Source: Candidatus Vogelbacteria bacterium RIFOXYD1_FULL_44_32
GTDB taxonomy: Bacteria; Patescibacteriota; Minisyncoccia; Phycocordibacterales; XYD1-FULL-46-19
DNA: 33,912 nt
Direction: 5' to 3'
NCBI GenBank assembly: GCA_001823065.1
Contig: MHTJ01000005.1
Location: forward strand, 1-33,912
Shown here: piece after piece, positions 1-6,677 of the stretch
How the letters are laid out: the number at the start of each line of letters is the position of its first letter
Position numbering within the stretch: the first letter of the stretch is position 1
Notes under the pieces: generated by a model
The model's database searches: none
What the model was told of the DNA's origin: nothing
The model's input: the letters and a program-made list of their open reading frames with translations, nothing else
Program-made: the position numbers and the translations under genes

Positions 1-2
1 TG

Positions 3-299
3 AGAGGTGCTTTCCTTACTGCATTTGGATTACCAAAAGAAAAATACATAGCAACTGCAGCCGCTATCGCTCTGGCTGTTGATATAACAAGATTGCCCAT
101 ATACCTCAAAGAAGGTTTCCTACAGCCCCAATTTTACTGGATGGTTCCAGTTCTCCTTGTTGTCGCTCTGTGTGGTTCTTTTGTAGGGAAACAGATTACA
201 GACAAGATTTCTCAATCGGTATTTAGACGTATTGTCCTTATCGCTATTTTTATAATCGGTATAAAGTTTATTTTTGACTGGTTGAATACGGGCTTATAG
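3..299 (+). CDS. TauE/SafE (TSUP) family membrane permease, C-terminal fragment (5' truncated by window edge)
   Basis: Open frame continues from base 3 (RGAFLTAFGLPKEKYIATAAAIALAVDITRLPIYL...); hydrophobic helices and GSFVGKQITDKIS...FRRIVLIAIFIIGIKFI typical of TSUP C-termini. Confidence 0.6.
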   Translation, partial: RGAFLTAFGLPKEKYIATAAAIALAVDITRLPIYLKEGFLQPQFYWMVPVLLVVALCGSFVGKQITDKISQSVFRRIVLIAIFIIGIKFIFDWLNTGL

Positions 300-383
300 T
301 TCAATTAGACCATTTGTAATATCCCTGAAAACTCAAGCTCCTGCTTTATGGCTTTCCAATCTACAGTTCTGAACCCGGACAAT

Positions 384-555
384 AGAGGGAGCAAAATTTA
401 GAACGCCGTCAGGCGTTTTAATTTTGCTCCCCCGAGTAAGGCAACTGCTTGCCTTGCGGGCAGGGATCGAAAAGCTTCTCCTATATTTTCGAGCCATAGG
501 CGAGAAAATGGGAAAGCTCTACTGTTCCTGTAAGGAAAGACCCCTGCCGAGGGAG
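384..555. other. Highly structured non-coding region (nested inverted repeats; ncRNA or palindromic repeat element)
   Basis: GGGAGCAAAATT/AATTTTGCTCCC with inner AACGCC-GTCA-GGCGTT; AAGGCAACTGCTTGCCTT; ATTTTCGAGCCATAGGCGAGAAAAT; TTCCTGTAAGGAA; GGCAGGG...CCCCTGCC. Confidence 0.5.
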
Positions 556-580
556 TTAAAAATTTTGGCTGACCCCATTA

Positions 581-617
581 CCTCGAGCTCGCAGGCCAGC
601 GTGTTAACAAATTAACA
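581..617 (+). repeat. Boundary repeat copy 1
   Basis: CCTCGAGCTCGCAGGCCAGCGTGTTAACAAATTAACA; 31/37 identical to 1857-1893, last 17 nt identical. Confidence 0.75.
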
Positions 618-655
618 AAAATGGTGCCAAGGTATTGAAACATTACGGGGGGGGG

Positions 656-684
656 TTGACATATAAACGAAAATAGTGTAAAAG
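656..684 (+). promoter_or_regulatory. Sigma70-like promoter (TTGACA-17-TAAAAG) preceded by G9 tract (647-655)
   Basis: TTGACA at 656-661, TAAAAG at 679-684. Confidence 0.6.
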
Positions 685-817
685 ATATTTAGATTTGATG
701 TAGTGGAAAACAGCGGGGTGTTCCTGGCACCACTGCATCAGCATAGGTATATTTGGCGTTTTATCCCAAAGACATCCTAGATGTTCTTCAAAACAAAACG
801 CATAAGGAGAAATCGCG

Positions 818-1777
818 ATGGTTGATGCATACATAGGCCATGGTATGGCCAACGAGCCTGTCTACGATGTCACCAGCTTGGGCAAAGGGCTCGAACTGGT
901 CAAGCGTCGCAAGGTCGAGTTCGACCGCAAAGAAGCGATGAAGCTGCTTGAGCTCGATGAGTTTCCCGGGGATCGGCGACTCAAGCAGAACCATGTTGAC
1001 CGCCTCATCAAGGCTATGTTGCGTGGGACATTTCACCCAGAGTGGGTGACTCTCATCGTGTGCGCACTTGACGGCAAGCACTACCGAATGAACGGCCAGC
1101 ATACGGCTTGGGCGCGTATCGAGATGCCCGAAGTTTGGCCGTGCTCCGTCGAATTGCTCGAATATCGGGCGGAAACGGATGAGGATCTGCGGTCTTTGTA
1201 CTCGTCGATCGACCGGTCAAGCCCCCGCACGCGGACCAATGTCATGGACAGCTATTTGGTGGGAACGCCGGAATTCGAGGGCATCAAGCGCCAGAGCTTG
1301 TCCCGCCTTCCCCAAGGGTTCGAACTGTGGTTTTGGCCGAGCGCACAGGATCGCAGGAAGCACGACGCGGATGATACCTCGTTTCTCCTGAAGACGGAAC
1401 AATACGACCTCGCGGTGAAGGTGGCGGCGTTCCTAGACAAATTGTCGGCCAGAGAGAACCGCCACATGTTCCGCAGCCCTGTGATCGCGGCCATGTTTGC
1501 CATCTTCAATAAGTCACCACAAGTGGCTGTGAAGTTCTGGCAACCCATCGCAGACGGCACCGGCATCGACAAAAAGGGTGATCCGCGTCTGAAGCTCCGT
1601 AACGAGCTAATGCGTACGGCCGTCGACTCCGGCGGAGGCTCGCGGAGCGACAAGAAGCGCGTCAGCCAGGAGTACATGTTTCGGCTCTGCATCAACGCGT
1701 GGAATGCCTACCGCGAGGAACGTAGCCTGTCGCAACTCAAGGCCTACGAGGGCGGCAAGCGTTGCTCTCTCAAGTGA
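818..1777 (+). CDS. ParB/DGQHR-like domain protein (orphan)
   Basis: SD AAGGAG before ATG; RLKQNHVDRLIKAMLRGTFHPEWVTLIVCALDGKHYRMNGQHTAWA resembles the ParB/DndB-type GQH motif; visibly GC-rich compared with neighbours. Confidence 0.65.
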   Translation: MVDAYIGHGMANEPVYDVTSLGKGLELVKRRKVEFDRKEAMKLLELDEFPGDRRLKQNHVDRLIKAMLRGTFHPEWVTLIVCALDGKHYRMNGQHTAWARIEMPEVWPCSVELLEYRAETDEDLRSLYSSIDRSSPRTRTNVMDSYLVGTPEFEGIKRQSLSRLPQGFELWFWPSAQDRRKHDADDTSFLLKTEQYDLAVKVAAFLDKLSARENRHMFRSPVIAAMFAIFNKSPQVAVKFWQPIADGTGIDKKGDPRLKLRNELMRTAVDSGGGSRSDKKRVSQEYMFRLCINAWNAYREERSLSQLKAYEGGKRCSLK

Positions 1778-1803
1778 GTGACTAGGTTCTCCTGCCGACT
1801 ATT

Positions 1804-1838
1804 AGCGCACGACCCTCGGGTACGGCGCTTTTTCTTTT
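1804..1838 (+). terminator. Intrinsic terminator after ParB-like gene
   Basis: AGCGC-ACGACCCTCGGGTACG-GCGCT followed by TTTTCTTTT. Confidence 0.75.
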
Positions 1839-1856
1839 ACCCCAACTTTCTCACTT
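1830..1856 (+). repeat. Unit-end motif TTTTCTTTTACCCCAACTTTCTCACTT
   Basis: 25/27 identical to 5413-5439. Confidence 0.7.
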
Positions 1857-1893
1857 CCTCGAGCCCGCGGAGCCGAGTGTTAACAAATTAACA
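1857..1893 (+). repeat. Boundary repeat copy 2
   Basis: CCTCGAGCCCGCGGAGCCGAGTGTTAACAAATTAACA; aligns gap-free with 581-617. Confidence 0.75.
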
Positions 1894-1944
1894 GAGGTGT
1901 GGTAGGAATGGACTTAGACTAAACCAGAAGGGAGGTGACTGATT

Positions 1945-2226
1945 TTGAATGAACAGCTTGCGGAAATCTCCCGCAAATACGGTTGGGACGAGGAGACCCT
2001 CTTGGCGAAGATCGCAAGGACGAAGGAAATACTCAGACTCGCCAGTGATGAAGCTGCGATAGATTTTCTCCTTGCCACCAAGGTGACCACCATTTGTGAC
2101 GGTTGCAATGTGAGACCGCTGTTTGAGCATCGTTGTCATGATGACTGCATTGTGGTGGCGGGAGTACAAACGGAAAGAAAGTGCGAGTGTCCATTCTGCT
2201 TTGTAAGCAGGAATCTTGTAACCTGA
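1945..2226 (+). CDS. Small Cys/His-rich hypothetical protein, probable zinc binder
   Basis: GGGAGGTGA upstream; CDGC...HRCHDDC...CECPFC. Confidence 0.6.
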   Translation: MNEQLAEISRKYGWDEETLLAKIARTKEILRLASDEAAIDFLLATKVTTICDGCNVRPLFEHRCHDDCIVVAGVQTERKCECPFCFVSRNLVT

Positions 2227-2228
2227 TC

Positions 2229-2266
2229 GCCCTCAACGAAGACCGTGGGAGGGCGGTTTTCTTTTA
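2229..2266 (+). terminator. Intrinsic terminator with TTTTCTTTTA tail
   Basis: GCCCTC...GAGGGC then GGTTTTCTTTTACCC. Confidence 0.7.
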
Positions 2267-2291
2267 CCCTTTAAATTGCTAAAGTTAATTT

Positions 2292-2885
2292 ATGAAACCC
2301 CAAATAGTCTTAATTCACGGTGGTACCACCTTCGAAACTTACGAGGAGTATATGAAGTACCTGAACTCATGCGAAATAACCCTAGAAAAGCTCAATCGTA
2401 AAGATTGGAAAGACAACCTAGGCGAAGTTTTACCTGATTTTGAAGTGATATACCCGAAAATGCCGAATGCCAAAAACGCTCACTATGAGGAGTGGAAAAT
2501 TTGGTTTGAAAAACTATTTCCGTTAATACGTGATGAGGTCATTCTAGTTGGCCACTCGCTCGGAGGGATATTTTTAGCTAAATACTTATCTGAGAACGAT
2601 TTTCCGAAGAAGATTAAATCTGCCCACTTGGTGGCTGCCCCTTACGATGATGTTGACTGCGATGAGTCACTAGCTGATTTTGCTTTAACTGAGAGCTTAG
2701 AGAAATTTAGAAAACAAACACCAGAGATATATTTATACCACAGCCAAGACGACACCTCGGTTCCGTATGCTGATGTGAACAAGTATAAAAAGGATTTACC
2801 TGACGCCATTCTTATTTCCTTTGAAGACAAGGGGCACTTTTTACAAAACGACTTCCCAAAATTAGTGGGGAATATCAAGGTGTAA
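2292..2885 (+). CDS. Alpha/beta hydrolase (RBBP9/YdeN-like serine hydrolase)
   Basis: QIVLIHGGTT, VGHSLGG nucleophile elbow, YHSQDDTSVPY and DKGHF acid/His motifs. Confidence 0.8.
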   Translation: MKPQIVLIHGGTTFETYEEYMKYLNSCEITLEKLNRKDWKDNLGEVLPDFEVIYPKMPNAKNAHYEEWKIWFEKLFPLIRDEVILVGHSLGGIFLAKYLSENDFPKKIKSAHLVAAPYDDVDCDESLADFALTESLEKFRKQTPEIYLYHSQDDTSVPYADVNKYKKDLPDAILISFEDKGHFLQNDFPKLVGNIKV

Positions 2886-2925
2886 TTATATGACCATTTA
2901 AGGAAGTTCGGATATTGTGGAGGGT

Positions 2926-2953
2926 GCAGAGCCGAGCGTTAACAAACTTACAG
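2926..2953 (+). repeat. Boundary repeat copy 3 (partial)
   Basis: GCAGAGCCGAGCGTTAACAAACTTACAG, 24/28 identical to the 3' part of copy 2 plus the following G. Confidence 0.65.
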
Positions 2954-2996
2954 GAATGACTTTTTGGTCGTGTACATCCTTAATCGATAAATATCA

Positions 2997-3509
2997 ATGA
3001 AGAAAAAAATCATAAAAGTGAATGATAAATTCCAGAAAGGTTACAGATATGAACTGACCGAACCAGTGGGCAGAAATTTTCATCCGGATTTTAAACCAGA
3101 GCTTACACCAAAAGAGATGCTTGTGCTCGGCGTCTTTGGTGGCAAGTATATGACCGATTGCAAGAAGGAGTTTCCTAAAAGTTGGTTTATTCGTGCCAAG
3201 ATTTCACCCGAACATCATGATGACACACTGAACTTTTTTCATAAGCATGCTAGCCAGCCGCTTAAAGTGTGGCAAGAAAAGGGATGGATCGATGAAGAGC
3301 ACGATCCTCGAGGTTGGTTCCAGTGGTACTGCCGATACTATATGGGCAGAAGGCTTCCTATCGAAGATGAACGGCAGATCAAGCGGTGGAAAGCAATCAG
3401 TCGTCATATATCGCAGATTAGAAAGAATTGCCGACCGAAAGATTTAACCTGCCGCCCCACTCAAAGACAGGCTGTTTTGCACTGGGCTTACGACAGTAGG
3501 AATATCTAA
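2997..3509 (+). CDS. Conserved hypothetical protein
   Basis: Long ORF with GVFGGKYMTDCKKEFPKSWF and GWIDEEHDPRGWFQWYCRYYMGRRLP blocks; terminator-like hairpin downstream. Confidence 0.6.
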   Translation: MKKKIIKVNDKFQKGYRYELTEPVGRNFHPDFKPELTPKEMLVLGVFGGKYMTDCKKEFPKSWFIRAKISPEHHDDTLNFFHKHASQPLKVWQEKGWIDEEHDPRGWFQWYCRYYMGRRLPIEDERQIKRWKAISRHISQIRKNCRPKDLTCRPTQRQAVLHWAYDSRNI

Positions 3510-3526
3510 TATTTTTACCGATGCTT

Positions 3527-3560
3527 GGCCATTCAGCTTTAGTTGGTCGATTTTCTTTTA
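3527..3560 (+). terminator. Weak intrinsic terminator with TTTTCTTTTA tail
   Basis: GGCCA...TGGTC then GATTTTCTTTTACC. Confidence 0.5.
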
Positions 3561-3589
3561 CCTTATTTCAATTTTGTTATACTTCATTT

Positions 3590-4063
3590 ATGTATGAAAT
3601 AAAAAATGTCGAGGAAAAAGATTTGTCTAAACTGGCTGAAATAATGGCAACAGTTTTTACTATTACTGATCCAGATAAACCTTGGGACAAAGAATTTGCT
3701 TATAAATATCTTGAGTATTGGTTCAAAAAACAACCCGACATGTTTTTGGTGTCTTTTGATAGTGAAGGCAATCCCGTTGGGGCTATGGCCGTAAATATAA
3801 AACCTTGGCGAACAGGTGTTAGGTGTAGTGATGGGGTTGTGTTTGTGGATACTAAATATCAAAAACAAGGAATTGCAAGAGCTTTATTCAAAAAAGTAAT
3901 AGGGGAGGCTATGGGTAAATATAATGCGATTGATTTTGAGGCCGTCACTTTTGCTGGCAGTGAGTTTCCATTATCTTGGTATAAGCAAATTGGTATTAAT
4001 CCAGATGAACATGTTGTGCTTATAAAAGGGAAGTGTGCGGACATTTTAGCTAACCTAGGGTAA
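3590..4063 (+). CDS. GNAT family N-acetyltransferase
   Basis: VVFVDTKYQKQGIARALFKKVIGEA acetyl-CoA-binding motif; start at ATG 3590 rather than ORF start 3521. Confidence 0.8.
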   Translation: MYEIKNVEEKDLSKLAEIMATVFTITDPDKPWDKEFAYKYLEYWFKKQPDMFLVSFDSEGNPVGAMAVNIKPWRTGVRCSDGVVFVDTKYQKQGIARALFKKVIGEAMGKYNAIDFEAVTFAGSEFPLSWYKQIGINPDEHVVLIKGKCADILANLG

Positions 4064-4187
4064 ATTTCTCACTTCATACAGTCGGCAGAGCAAAATTTTT
4101 TAGCCTTGTTTTGTCGTGGTTGCTGCTATTAGTGGGCCTTGAGTCCATAGAGTATAATTTAGGAATTAAAAATATAACCTAAAAACC

Positions 4188-4685
4188 ATGAGAGCATCAT
4201 TTCAAGTTTTAGCTTTTCCTTTTATTAAAGAGGGGGATAATTATTTATATGCAATTTTTAAGCGGAAAGATATGAGTGTTTGGCAAGCAATTTCGGGAGG
4301 AGGGGAAGATAATGAAAACCCTGTTGAGGCAATGAAAAGAGAGGTTTATGAAGAAGCTGCGCTGGCTAAAGATTTATCTTTTATTAGATTATCAGCTCTT
4401 TCGACAATACCAGCAGTAAATATTAGAGGTTTGATGTGGGGTGAAGAAATCGTGATGATCCCAGAATTTACTTTTGGTATCGAGTCACCTTCAAAAGAAT
4501 TTCAAATTAGTGATGAACATACTGAGTATGGTTGGTTTAGTTATGAAGAGGCGGTTGGTAAATTAAAATATGATAGTAATAAGTCGGCATTATGGGAGTT
4601 GAATTATCGGCTCAAAAATGGTGTTGGTGGTATAGATAAAAATATTGAAGTCATCGAAAAACTTTATGGTTCAAATAATGAATGA
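4188..4685 (+). CDS. NUDIX hydrolase
   Basis: GGGEDNENPVEAMKREVYEEAAL, close to the Nudix box GX5EX7REUXEEXGU. Confidence 0.85.
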   Translation: MRASFQVLAFPFIKEGDNYLYAIFKRKDMSVWQAISGGGEDNENPVEAMKREVYEEAALAKDLSFIRLSALSTIPAVNIRGLMWGEEIVMIPEFTFGIESPSKEFQISDEHTEYGWFSYEEAVGKLKYDSNKSALWELNYRLKNGVGGIDKNIEVIEKLYGSNNE

Positions 4686-4811
4686 AAGAAAATAATGGGA
4701 TTCTTTTAATATAGCGGAATAGCTAATATATTAAGAGAGCTAGTGTTTTACTTTCATTTCTCTATATGTTACCCTATAAACAGAGTCTGAACCTTGAAAG
4801 GAGGTGATGTT

Positions 4812-5033
4812 ATGACTCAAAAATGGTCAAAGATTGGCGATGGAAGCCAAAATCGAGTGACGATAAGTAACCCCGACGGGTCAACACGCACGGTTGATGA
4901 GCGTGCCGACGGTGGTATTACGGTTACTGACACCAATAAAGAAGGACACTCTGTTAGTGGCGAAGGTGCTCGTGGTGTGTGGAGTGGTCTTTCCGGTGCT
5001 TGTCGCTTGAATGATACGCCCGGTAAGCTTTAG
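4812..5033 (+). CDS. Small hypothetical protein
   Basis: AAAGGAGGTGATG strong SD directly upstream of ATG 4812. Confidence 0.55.
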   Translation: MTQKWSKIGDGSQNRVTISNPDGSTRTVDERADGGITVTDTNKEGHSVSGEGARGVWSGLSGACRLNDTPGKL

Positions 5034-5127
5034 TCGTTCTATTATAGTTCAGATTGTTTTGGGTGTTCCAAAATAAGCTGAACGAAATTAATTTGCCAGG
5101 CCGATCAACAAATAGGAGATCTAGGTC

Positions 5128-5319
5128 ATGGAAACAAACGATGAACAGCTCCAAGAGGCTCATAATCAGGGCGGAAGCGATTGCTCTGATTGGATAAATG
5201 GACCCGATTTTGGTTCTCTGTCTGGTATATTTAGTAGTCCGTGTAATCCGCCAAGTGACCCCGAACTGCATGAAGCTTACCTTGCTGGTTTCAAAAACAC
5301 CTGGGAAGATTCTTTCTAA
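5128..5319 (+). CDS. Small acidic hypothetical protein
   Basis: AGGAGATC SD upstream; EAHNQGGSDCS...PPSDPELHEAYLAGFKNTWE; terminator downstream. Confidence 0.5.
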   Translation: METNDEQLQEAHNQGGSDCSDWINGPDFGSLSGIFSSPCNPPSDPELHEAYLAGFKNTWEDSF

Positions 5320-5381
5320 GCAATTCGTTTGTATTTGATTTCTCTTTTTGATTAAAATAAAATCACCATGTTTCAACCATT

Positions 5382-5422
5382 CGGGTCCTTTGCCACATGA
5401 GCTAGGGGCCCGTTTTCTTTTA
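5382..5422 (+). terminator. Intrinsic terminator with TTTTCTTTTA tail
   Basis: GGGTCC...GGGCCC then GTTTTCTTTTACCC. Confidence 0.65.
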
Positions 5423-5439
5423 CCCTAACTTTCTCATTT
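5413..5439 (+). repeat. Unit-end motif TTTTCTTTTACCCTAACTTTCTCATTT
   Basis: 25/27 identical to 1830-1856. Confidence 0.7.
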
Positions 5440-5475
5440 TGCATCGAAGGTTCAAGTTCGTGCTACACTTATATT

Positions 5476-5673
5476 ATGCAAAAAATATCAACCCTTGTGT
5501 TTATGTATACCTCGATTGCCTTTGGTATTGTTGGTCTTGGACTAGTCCTTTTTGGCGGTCCCAACGACAACGACCCGACAAACCAGTTTTTTATGAAGTT
5601 AATAATGGCCTGTGTTTTCGTCATTTTACCGTCTTTTGCTCTTAGTGTGGCGGGTAAGTATCTTGGTCGGTAG
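5476..5673 (+). CDS. Small two-TM hypothetical membrane protein
   Basis: Two hydrophobic segments; TACACT -10-like element 6 nt before ATG. Confidence 0.5.
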   Translation: MQKISTLVFMYTSIAFGIVGLGLVLFGGPNDNDPTNQFFMKLIMACVFVILPSFALSVAGKYLGR

Positions 5674-5689
5674 TCGGTAGAGCTTATTA

Positions 5690-5718
5690 TTGACAGATGA
5701 CCATATATTCTTTAGATT
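5690..5718 (+). promoter_or_regulatory. Sigma70-like promoter
   Basis: TTGACA (5690-5695) - 17 nt - TAGATT (5713-5718). Confidence 0.55.
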
Positions 5719-5768
5719 AAAGAACGGAGTTTTTGATTGTATCTCAACGAAAAAAGGAAGGAAATACC

Positions 5769-6290
5769 ATGAAACTCAGGGTCCTAAAATTAGGCACGGA
5801 GTGTCGCGACAAGGCGACAAAATTGCGGGGGACACTAACCCACTGGTTGATGGATTTCGGCGGGAGTGTCACCTACCTGTTCCAGCCGAAAGGACTGGAT
5901 CAGGAGGGACAACCCCTCAAGAAAATCTATATTTGCGAAGCACGGGTCGAGGTCTCCGCTGGAGACTTCGAAGAGATTGATGTCCCTTTCGAAATCCTTG
6001 GCTCGGAAGTCGAGGACAAGGCCAGCGGTTTCAAGGGGATGGCCGTCGACTTTGTTCGACATATCAACGGGTGCTTCCACGTCGCAATCCAGCCGGCGGG
6101 GACAATCAAAGGCAAGAATATCCCGATCGAAAAATCGGAGTTTGACCTCCGCGGCTGCACCGGCAAAAAGATTATTCAGATGTCGGCAGAGGAGAAAAAG
6201 CAGAGCCAGGTAGAAAAGCCTTCTCCGGCGAGTCGCCCCCTTGATCGGGGACTGCAGGGTGCTGACACTACCATCAGCCGGCGTGGATAA
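5769..6290 (+). CDS. Hypothetical protein (orphan)
   Basis: GGAAGGAA SD before ATG 5769; GC-rich; flanked by its own promoter and terminator. Confidence 0.6.
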   Translation: MKLRVLKLGTECRDKATKLRGTLTHWLMDFGGSVTYLFQPKGLDQEGQPLKKIYICEARVEVSAGDFEEIDVPFEILGSEVEDKASGFKGMAVDFVRHINGCFHVAIQPAGTIKGKNIPIEKSEFDLRGCTGKKIIQMSAEEKKQSQVEKPSPASRPLDRGLQGADTTISRRG

Positions 6291-6320
6291 TATTTGTTTT
6301 TTGTCCGCTCCTCTCTGAAG

Positions 6321-6359
6321 ACCGCTCCATGCAGTCTCAGGTGGGGCGGTTTTCTTTTA
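6321..6359 (+). terminator. Intrinsic terminator with TTTTCTTTTA tail; island right edge
   Basis: ACCGCTCC...GGGGCGGT then TTTTCTTTTA; overlaps the stop of the convergent minus-strand gene. Confidence 0.65.
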
Positions 6360-6677
6360 GTTGGTGTTTTTAGATGGAATATCGGTCGAGTTGGGAGTAG
6401 CTTCACTTTCAGTTTTGGTCGCGGTGGTGGCTTGCTCGTTTAGTTTTCGGTTATCTTTTTTAAGTTTATAAATAGTGAAGGCATTTTGGATATCTCCGGG
6501 GATGGTCATTAGAATACTTATCAATATTCCCACAATTAGCGAGAGAATAATCAGAACTGCCAGTGGGGCCGTAATTTCCCAAGCTAGAAAGGTGACTGTC
6601 ACCGCAAAAGTATTTTGTAGGGCAAAGACGACGGCCCCTGCCCCAACCAGCAGACCTAAAATAAGTGAAATTATCAT
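6357..6677 (-). CDS. LapA-domain (DUF1049-like) membrane protein
   Basis: LLVGAGAVVFALQNTFAVTVTFLAWEITAPLAVLIILSLIVGILISIL pattern. Confidence 0.65.
   Translation of the reverse strand: MIISLILGLLVGAGAVVFALQNTFAVTVTFLAWEITAPLAVLIILSLIVGILISILMTIPGDIQNAFTIYKLKKDNRKLNEQATTATKTESEATPNSTDIPSKNTN

Follow-up and report, generated by a model that had tools for sequence, protein, structure and literature searches.

Small foreign genes apparently joined in series behind a tRNA-Asn gene in a very small bacterium

Additive genomic islands that are anchored at a tRNA gene and contain repeats of tRNA fragments have been described in Ca. Actinomarinales (PMC7771536), in Ca. Methylopumilus (fGI-2; PMC10872708) and in Alteromonas (fGI1; PMC4119200). 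The array described here shares with them a conserved tRNA target, variable content at a fixed locus, a streamlined host genome and the transfer of cassettes between genera. It differs from them in that its units are mostly single genes, several with their own promoter and terminator, its joint is a conserved 29-bp mimic instead of an exact copy of the tRNA end, its host belongs to the Patescibacteria, and its tRNA is tRNA-Asn. Integrons and integron arrays that lack an integrase (CALINs), archaeal integrons among them (PMC9668308), likewise line up small unrelated genes in tandem, each followed at its 3' end by a recombination site, whereas in the present array we found no IntI, no site folding into an attC-like palindrome and no attI-beside-intI anchor, the anchor being the tRNA-Asn gene. 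Tycheposons are also tRNA-associated cargo islands of streamlined genomes; as cited in PMC10872708, they are large (4-200 kb) and recombinase-associated, whereas the cassettes here measure ~0.5-2.7 kb, none of those scanned holds a recombinase, and in place of an island-associated tyrosine recombinase there is only a serine recombinase, in a separate neighbouring element. Finally, large serine recombinase elements (in genomes G000, G008 and G010) use the same target tRNA end, but they carry their own recombinase while the array carries none, and the ends of the G000 element differ from the cassette joints.

Patescibacteria have minimal genomes, and the ways in which they acquire genes are poorly understood. 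The DNA analysed here (the window) is an entire contig, C5, of 33,912 nucleotides from the genome of Ca. Vogelbacteria bacterium RIFOXYD1_FULL_44_32 (G000). We consider it likely that positions 412-6360 of the window are a tandem array of small acquired cassettes, which grew downstream of a single-copy tRNA-Asn(GTT) gene, with the repeat as the joint between cassettes. On the best reading, the array is a tRNA-Asn-anchored structure without an integrase that stands near the 'additive' tRNA islands; new relative to these are its mostly single-gene, partly self-expressing cassettes and its conserved tRNA-mimicking site. In the literature searched we found no report of such arrays in Patescibacteria, and a 2025 study of genetic exchange in the group reports genomic islands, with integrases and integrons unmentioned (PMC12455944). 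A tRNA-Asn locus with an integron-like stock of cassettes in several lineages of the phylum offers a signature short enough to search for, a defined target gene and a recombination site open to testing and, if confirmed, would represent a cassette system operating without an integron integrase.

The repeat and the layout of the window array

The original prediction was of a 37-bp element repeated between the genes of an island, and its copies were all recovered. Positions 581-617 and 1857-1893 align gap-free with 31 of 37 bases identical, the final 17 bp fully so, as against only 24-26 identities for the best 37-mer pair after shuffling (20 dinucleotide-preserving shuffles of the 6-kb region). 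A third copy (2926-2953) is identical to the second at 24 of 28 positions, and weaker relatives are present at 4081 (GTCGGCAGAGC) and 5673 (GTCGGTAGAGC). Elsewhere in the genome, exact GTCGGYAGAGC occurs only inside a tRNA-Thr, and a search of all 705 kb for GTGTTAACAAATTAACA with up to two mismatches returned only positions 601 and 1877. The likeness of GTCGGYAGAGC to a tRNA D-arm was an early lead, superseded by the tRNA acceptor-end reading.

The proposed left limit of the element had to be moved, as the conserved joint begins directly past the previous terminator (TTTTACCCCAACTTTCTCACTTCCTCGAGCCCGCGGAGCC, 1835-1874); the conserved unit reaches leftward into TTTTACCCCAACTTTCTCACTTC, directly 3' of the terminator of the upstream gene, and 4062-4091 is a joint having this longer left part. 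The repeat is two fused parts. On the left, CTTTCTCACTTCCTCGAGCCCGCGGAGCC forms the joint that separates cassettes, while the identical 17 bp, GTGTTAACAAATTAACA, which lie ahead of unrelated genes, are probably the -35 region of the promoter/leader of the following cassette. Since joints without GTTAAC are also found in a related genome, G007, the two parts are separable, and the joint/leader arrangement in G007 indicates that the 37-bp repeat joins the tail of one unit (CTCGAGCCCGCGGAGCC) to the head of the following one (GTGTTAACAAATTAACA). GTTAAC had been taken for a recombination core, which was wrong: it is dispensable, the site invariably ends in GGAGC, the end of tRNA-Asn, and GTTAAC itself, judging from the conserved leader, is most likely the -35 region of the next cassette's promoter. 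Conservation does not extend to the local CTCG/CGAG stem, and no covariation supports a hairpin drawn for the wider family of sites.

In the leader after copy 2, TTAACA (1880-1885) is followed after 17 bp by TAGGAAT (1903-1909), and then by the leader and a Shine-Dalgarno sequence; TTAACA-17-TAGGAAT would be a promoter. A promoter scan found 12 where 9.5 were expected, which is near chance, and promoter claims therefore rest on conservation between arrays. Several joints of the window are degenerate or half sites (Table 1). The composition of the array is foreign-looking, the GC3 of its genes spreading over 23-73% as against an ORF mean of 43% (SD 7). At the thresholds applied, no known RNA family was detected in the window or in the array stretch of G007, and neither NCBIfam nor PADLOC gave a confident assignment of cargo function.

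Table 1 Features of the window array and of the sequence on its left.
Feature	Position	Strand	Remarks
Probable right end of a separate, serine-recombinase integrative element	1-386	.	Between tRNA-Asn and older array; from C4/C5 synteny and recombinase beside tRNA-Asn
3' end of membrane-protein gene	3-299		Inside 1-386
GGGAGC, probable crossover core of that element	387-392	+	attR side; attL is GGGAGC at tRNA-Asn 3' end on C4
Terminator-like hairpin	393-434	+	
AATTTTGCTCCCCCG	420-434	+	Inverted copy of tRNA-Asn end plus bases after
Block common to sister array start	412-555	+	65% over 145 bp, E 8e-8 with G007; also G216
Inverted T-arm GGCAGGGATCGAA of own tRNA-Asn	459-471		Within block 412-555
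Degenerate direct copy GACCCCTGCCGAGGGAG of own tRNA-Asn	539-555		Within block 412-555
Joint copy 1 (originally 581-617)	576-617	+	Right-hand part best kept
Cassette 1 upstream region, TTGACA at 656	628-668	+	81% over 43 bp with G009 tRNA-Asn locus
Cassette ORF, 319 aa, no Pfam family, GC3 73%	818-1777	+	
Cassette 1 terminator-like stem and TTTTTCTTTTAC tail	1803-1840	+	Same tail in relatives
Joint copy 2, best preserved, CCAACTTTCTCACTTCCTCGAGCCCGCGGAGCC	1841-1874	+	Terminates in family tRNA-Asn 3' end CCCGCGGAGC
Putative promoter/leader of next cassette	1875-1944	+	Holds the 17-bp identity; conserved before unrelated G007 genes
Cassette ORF, 93 aa, Cys-rich C-terminus	1945-2226	+	
Terminator GGGAGGGCGGTTTTCTTTTAC	2228-2267	+	88% over 49 bp with G007 array terminator
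Cassette ORF, alpha/beta hydrolase	2292-2885	+	Pfam PF00561 1.8e-11
Joint copy 3, right half	2926-2953	+	24/28 to copy 2
Cassette ORF, 170 aa, no family	2997-3509	+	
Cassette ORF, GNAT acetyltransferase	3590-4063	+	Pfam PF00583 3.1e-9
Joint copy 4, AAATTTCTCACTTCATACAGTCGGCAGAGC	4062-4091	+	77% to copy 2; 88% over 26 bp to G007 joint
Cassette ORF, NUDIX hydrolase, GC3 23%	4188-4685	+	Pfam PF00293 5.4e-9
Two small cassette ORFs (4812-5033, 5128-5319)	4812-5319	+	First with strong Shine-Dalgarno
Terminator tail and joint left half (TTTTCTTTTACCCTAACTTTCTCATTT)	5407-5439	+	88% to 1824-1856
Cassette ORF, 65-aa membrane protein	5476-5673	+	Homologue at G009 tRNA-Asn locus
Joint copy 5, right half (GTCGGTAGAGC), then TTGACA-17-TAGATT promoter-like site (5690-5718)	5673-5718	+	
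Last cassette ORF, 173 aa, no family, GC3 65%	5769-6290	+	
Terminator GGGGCGGTTTTCTTTTA, array right end	6325-6359	+	

The tRNA-Asn locus in two genera

In its own genome the repeat is confined to this array, but it recurs among relatives, both in a sister genus and as a wider site family, which bears out the original prediction in part. A fuzzy pattern made from copies 2 and 3 matched 7 of 297 genomes of the order, and outside the window's own genome the matches were clustered, three within 2 kb, only in G007 (Ca. Vogelbacteria RIFOXYD1_FULL_46_19, MHTK01000006.1), a member of the same family and of a different genus. Real window-type joints were confined, in the order sample, to these two genomes, as was the window-type left arm, and the remaining pattern matches had unrelated flanks; among 85,000 genomes, the exact left-arm pattern was found only on the G007 contig and on one Leptolyngbya contig. 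In the G007 array joints of the same kind part unrelated genes, in agreement with the idea of a boundary element, and the layout between these small genes is [terminator ..GGGCGGTTTTCTTTTACC][YTAAYTTTCTCACTTC-variable-GCGGAGC][next promoter/leader]. The leader GTTAACAAATTTACAATGGTGTGGTAGGAATAGGGAAGAAACGAAACCGGAGAGGAGGTGAT stands before unrelated ORFs in G007, where the GTTAAC part is missing from two leaders, and a version of it also lies 3' of window copy 2. Window positions 1913-1944 and the G007 array leaders share a long leader that includes a complete AGGAGGTGA Shine-Dalgarno sequence, again before unrelated ORFs, as if the cassettes carry a common expression module.

The G007 array starts directly after tRNA-Asn(GTT), whose 3' end is GGTTCGAGTCCTGCCCGCGGAGC; CCCGCGGAGC is both the 3' end of tRNA-Asn, conserved in the family, and the final 10 bp of the joint. 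When open frames from 60 kb of G007 were searched against G000, the pepF side of the tRNA matched C4:99.6-115.3k and the other side C5:8.7-25k, so that the right end of C4 neighbours the left end of C5 and both arrays lie at one locus; the tRNA-Asn and the array of G000 are on separate contigs, and their adjacency rests on this synteny. No G007 array gene matched G000 in the same search, though both flanks did, and other members of the family differ again, giving a fixed tRNA-Asn locus with variable gene content, as in additive islands. Another genome, G004, has two pepF genes on short contigs (G004:C3 and G004:C39) whose identities to the protein of G000 are 84% and 68%, reflecting a mixed bin or a duplication.

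The anticodon loop of the G000 tRNA-Asn is split by an intron (C4:115401-115745), for which reason ARAGORN missed the gene. Among the tRNA-Asn loci of G000, G009, G011, G364 and G390, several have a group I intron in the anticodon loop; ARAGORN misses or misnames such genes, and Rfam confirms the intron in G364 and G390. The G000 genome has two other group I introns, one within the 23S rRNA region (C1:776-1119) and another near a tRNA-Met (C4:26501-26799).

The C-terminal part of a large serine recombinase (C4:115641-116329; tblastn 3e-12 to another such enzyme, with a weak zinc-ribbon match) adjoins the G000 tRNA-Asn and runs off the contig. When the tRNA sequence CGGGGGAGC on C4 is joined to the window from 393 onward, it pairs over 15 bp with 420-434, whereas the window sequence alone (AGAGGGAGC) pairs less well. 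Three genomes have a structured block close to tRNA-Asn (window 459-555; G007 C6 at ~180.7k and ~177.2k; G216 C28). It consists of an inverted tRNA T-arm, ~70 nt with hairpins and a direct T-arm/acceptor copy, and each copy of the block tracks the tRNA sequence of its own genome.

A 29-bp site resembling the tRNA-Asn end

The joints at the tRNA-Asn loci of G009 and G015 are AACARGTTCTAACTTCCTCTATCCATCGGAGCCRAG, and a related 29-bp site, AGGTTCTAACATCCTCTATCCAACGGAGC, which mimics a tRNA T-arm plus acceptor end, was found in 14 genomes of the phylum. In a comparison with one genome per species, the site pattern gave 13 matches in 10 of 397 genomes of the order (1 control match), and a variant of it gave 5 matches in 4 of 380 genomes of the phylum (0 control matches). 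In half of the site-bearing genomes (7/14; G009, G015, G216, G364, G390, G186 and, from outside the class, G406) tRNA-Asn lies ~0.3-2.5 kb upstream of the site in the same orientation, five of these cases being independent of the pattern, since G009 and G015 had supplied it. The site is on contigs ending nearby in G010, G031, G061 and G388, and no tRNA-Asn lies within the stretch read around it in G155, G423 and G477. Together with G007, the seven tRNA-Asn cases have the tRNA target at one end of the array, as is typical of additive islands; for the window this holds by synteny only.

An alignment of 28 sites is conserved from about AAC to GGAGC and drops to background level in the very next column; the columns within the site had been selected by the search, whereas the flanks had not. 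The site looks like the T-arm and acceptor of the tRNA (GTAGGTTCGA-ATCCTACCCGCGGAGC) apart from differences that its copies share, and the window-type joint fits its frame with an extra TTTCTCAC (AAC-TTTCTCAC-TTCCTCGAGCCCGCGGAGCC). A repeat of the tRNA end for each cassette, a further mark of additive islands, accordingly takes the form of CCCGCGGAGC in the window and G007, of an exact 18-bp copy of the tRNA 3' end in G011 (~440 bp downstream, flanking one small ORF), and of the mimic elsewhere. The site patterns were absent from the viral contigs searched for phage carriers. A full palindrome (site, terminator, inverted T-arm) was dropped as the general site, being significant in only 4 of 23 sites.

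The likeness to the tRNA end means that decayed tRNA fragments near tRNA-Asn could contribute to such sites, and the joints could even be nothing but displaced fragments, left as larger elements integrated successively at tRNA-Asn and decayed, with no dedicated cassette system. The large serine recombinases beside tRNA-Asn in G000, G008 and G010, the exact tRNA-end copy in G011 and the degenerate joints of the window would suit this account. We nevertheless regard it as rather unlikely, because the 29-bp site differs from the tRNA in the same way in many lineages (TTCTAAC, extra YA) and is therefore not just decayed tRNA, and because the units are mostly single genes with a terminator and a site, without integrase remnants.

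Mobilisation and cargo of the cassettes

Under the preferred reading of a cassette array grown behind tRNA-Asn, the joint would combine a tRNA-Asn-3'-end-like attachment site closing one cassette with the promoter/leader opening the next. We infer that cassettes pass through circular intermediates and are mobilised in trans: a cassette circle would be recombined by a site-specific recombinase from outside the array, with the crossover at ...GGAGC, where tRNA-Asn or an existing joint ends. Insertion would rebuild the tRNA end and leave a new joint, so that cassettes would stack with their sites in one orientation and, as each tends to come with a promoter, ORF and terminator of its own, would be expressible wherever inserted. 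Neither excision nor a circle was seen, nor any gain or loss of cassettes within a species.

No recombinase was found among the 39 cassette proteins scanned, and no tyrosine recombinase in the scanned cargo of the window, G007, G031, G216, G364 and G390. Candidates for the mobilising enzyme are the Xer-like one resident in the cell, a serine recombinase working in trans, and one encoded by elements since lost. A large serine recombinase as universal mobiliser is unsupported, PF07508 being absent from 6 of 12 array genomes, whose assemblies may be incomplete; three genomes of the family carry such an enzyme beside tRNA-Asn. The array genomes mostly have one tyrosine recombinase, and an Xer-like enzyme is their commonest recombinase; no dif site was located. 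If such a resident enzyme inserted self-expressing cassettes with a tRNA-Asn-mimicking site behind tRNA-Asn, no dedicated integrase would be needed, and this would be a distinct cassette-capture system of Patescibacteria; we think this specific version unlikely.

It is very unlikely that the array is an integron without its integrase, with joints that are attC sites and cassettes moved in trans by an integron integrase. Small tandem genes of mixed function, in one orientation in the window and with a repeated site at each 3' end, do recall such arrays, as does YYYAAC at the left of the site, which resembles the R'' box of attC. However, a variable middle between complementary ends is not what the sites show, their conserved stretch being one contiguous block up to GGAGC. 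An inverted partner arm reaches significance in only 4 of 23 sites, two-sided changes are absent from the hairpin pairs, and the target is a tRNA. The tyrosine recombinases scanned all fall below the curated IntI cut-off and match Xer/XerA models; the single enzyme of G000 scores 122 bits against a cut-off of 265 and matches these models best, and the nearest to IntI, a second enzyme in G009, reaches 210/265 bits. Least probable of all is a purely regulatory repeat, an operator or promoter of co-regulated genes spread by leader duplication, which would fit the perfect TGTTAA-N4-TTAACA palindrome in the 17-bp part, unique to the array genome-wide, and the conserved leader with -35/-10-like spacing before unrelated genes, but would leave unexplained the likeness to tRNA-Asn and the tRNA-Asn location in several lineages, as well as the joints that lack the 17-bp part.

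The clearest cassettes consist of promoter, ORF, terminator and site. In G186, tRNA-Asn is followed by three units, each ending in a terminator and GTTCGAACNTCCTCYAGCCAGYGGAGC, and TTGACA comes directly after GGAGC in the second. The units are mostly single genes, some of them in reverse direction in G031 and G390, and the cargo of the arrays includes GNAT, NUDIX, alpha/beta hydrolase, Fic, glyoxalase, methyltransferase, NYN, ABC transporter and carotenoid-synthesis-like proteins, together with many unknowns. Cargo is shared between lineages. The window gene at 5476-5673 and its homologue at the G009 tRNA-Asn locus are 66% identical over 212 bp of DNA and 62% over 71 aa of protein, and another gene, with 82% identity over 466 bp, is found immediately behind tRNA-Asn in G003:C11 and within the array of G031:C36 (7509-7971), a genome of another family. 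The homology of the latter pair begins ~15 bp upstream of the start codon and ends just past the stop codon, and the gene was apparently transferred between the two families. On contig C3 of G010, a LOOT RNA (RF03000) scores above the gathering threshold upstream of the cassette site.
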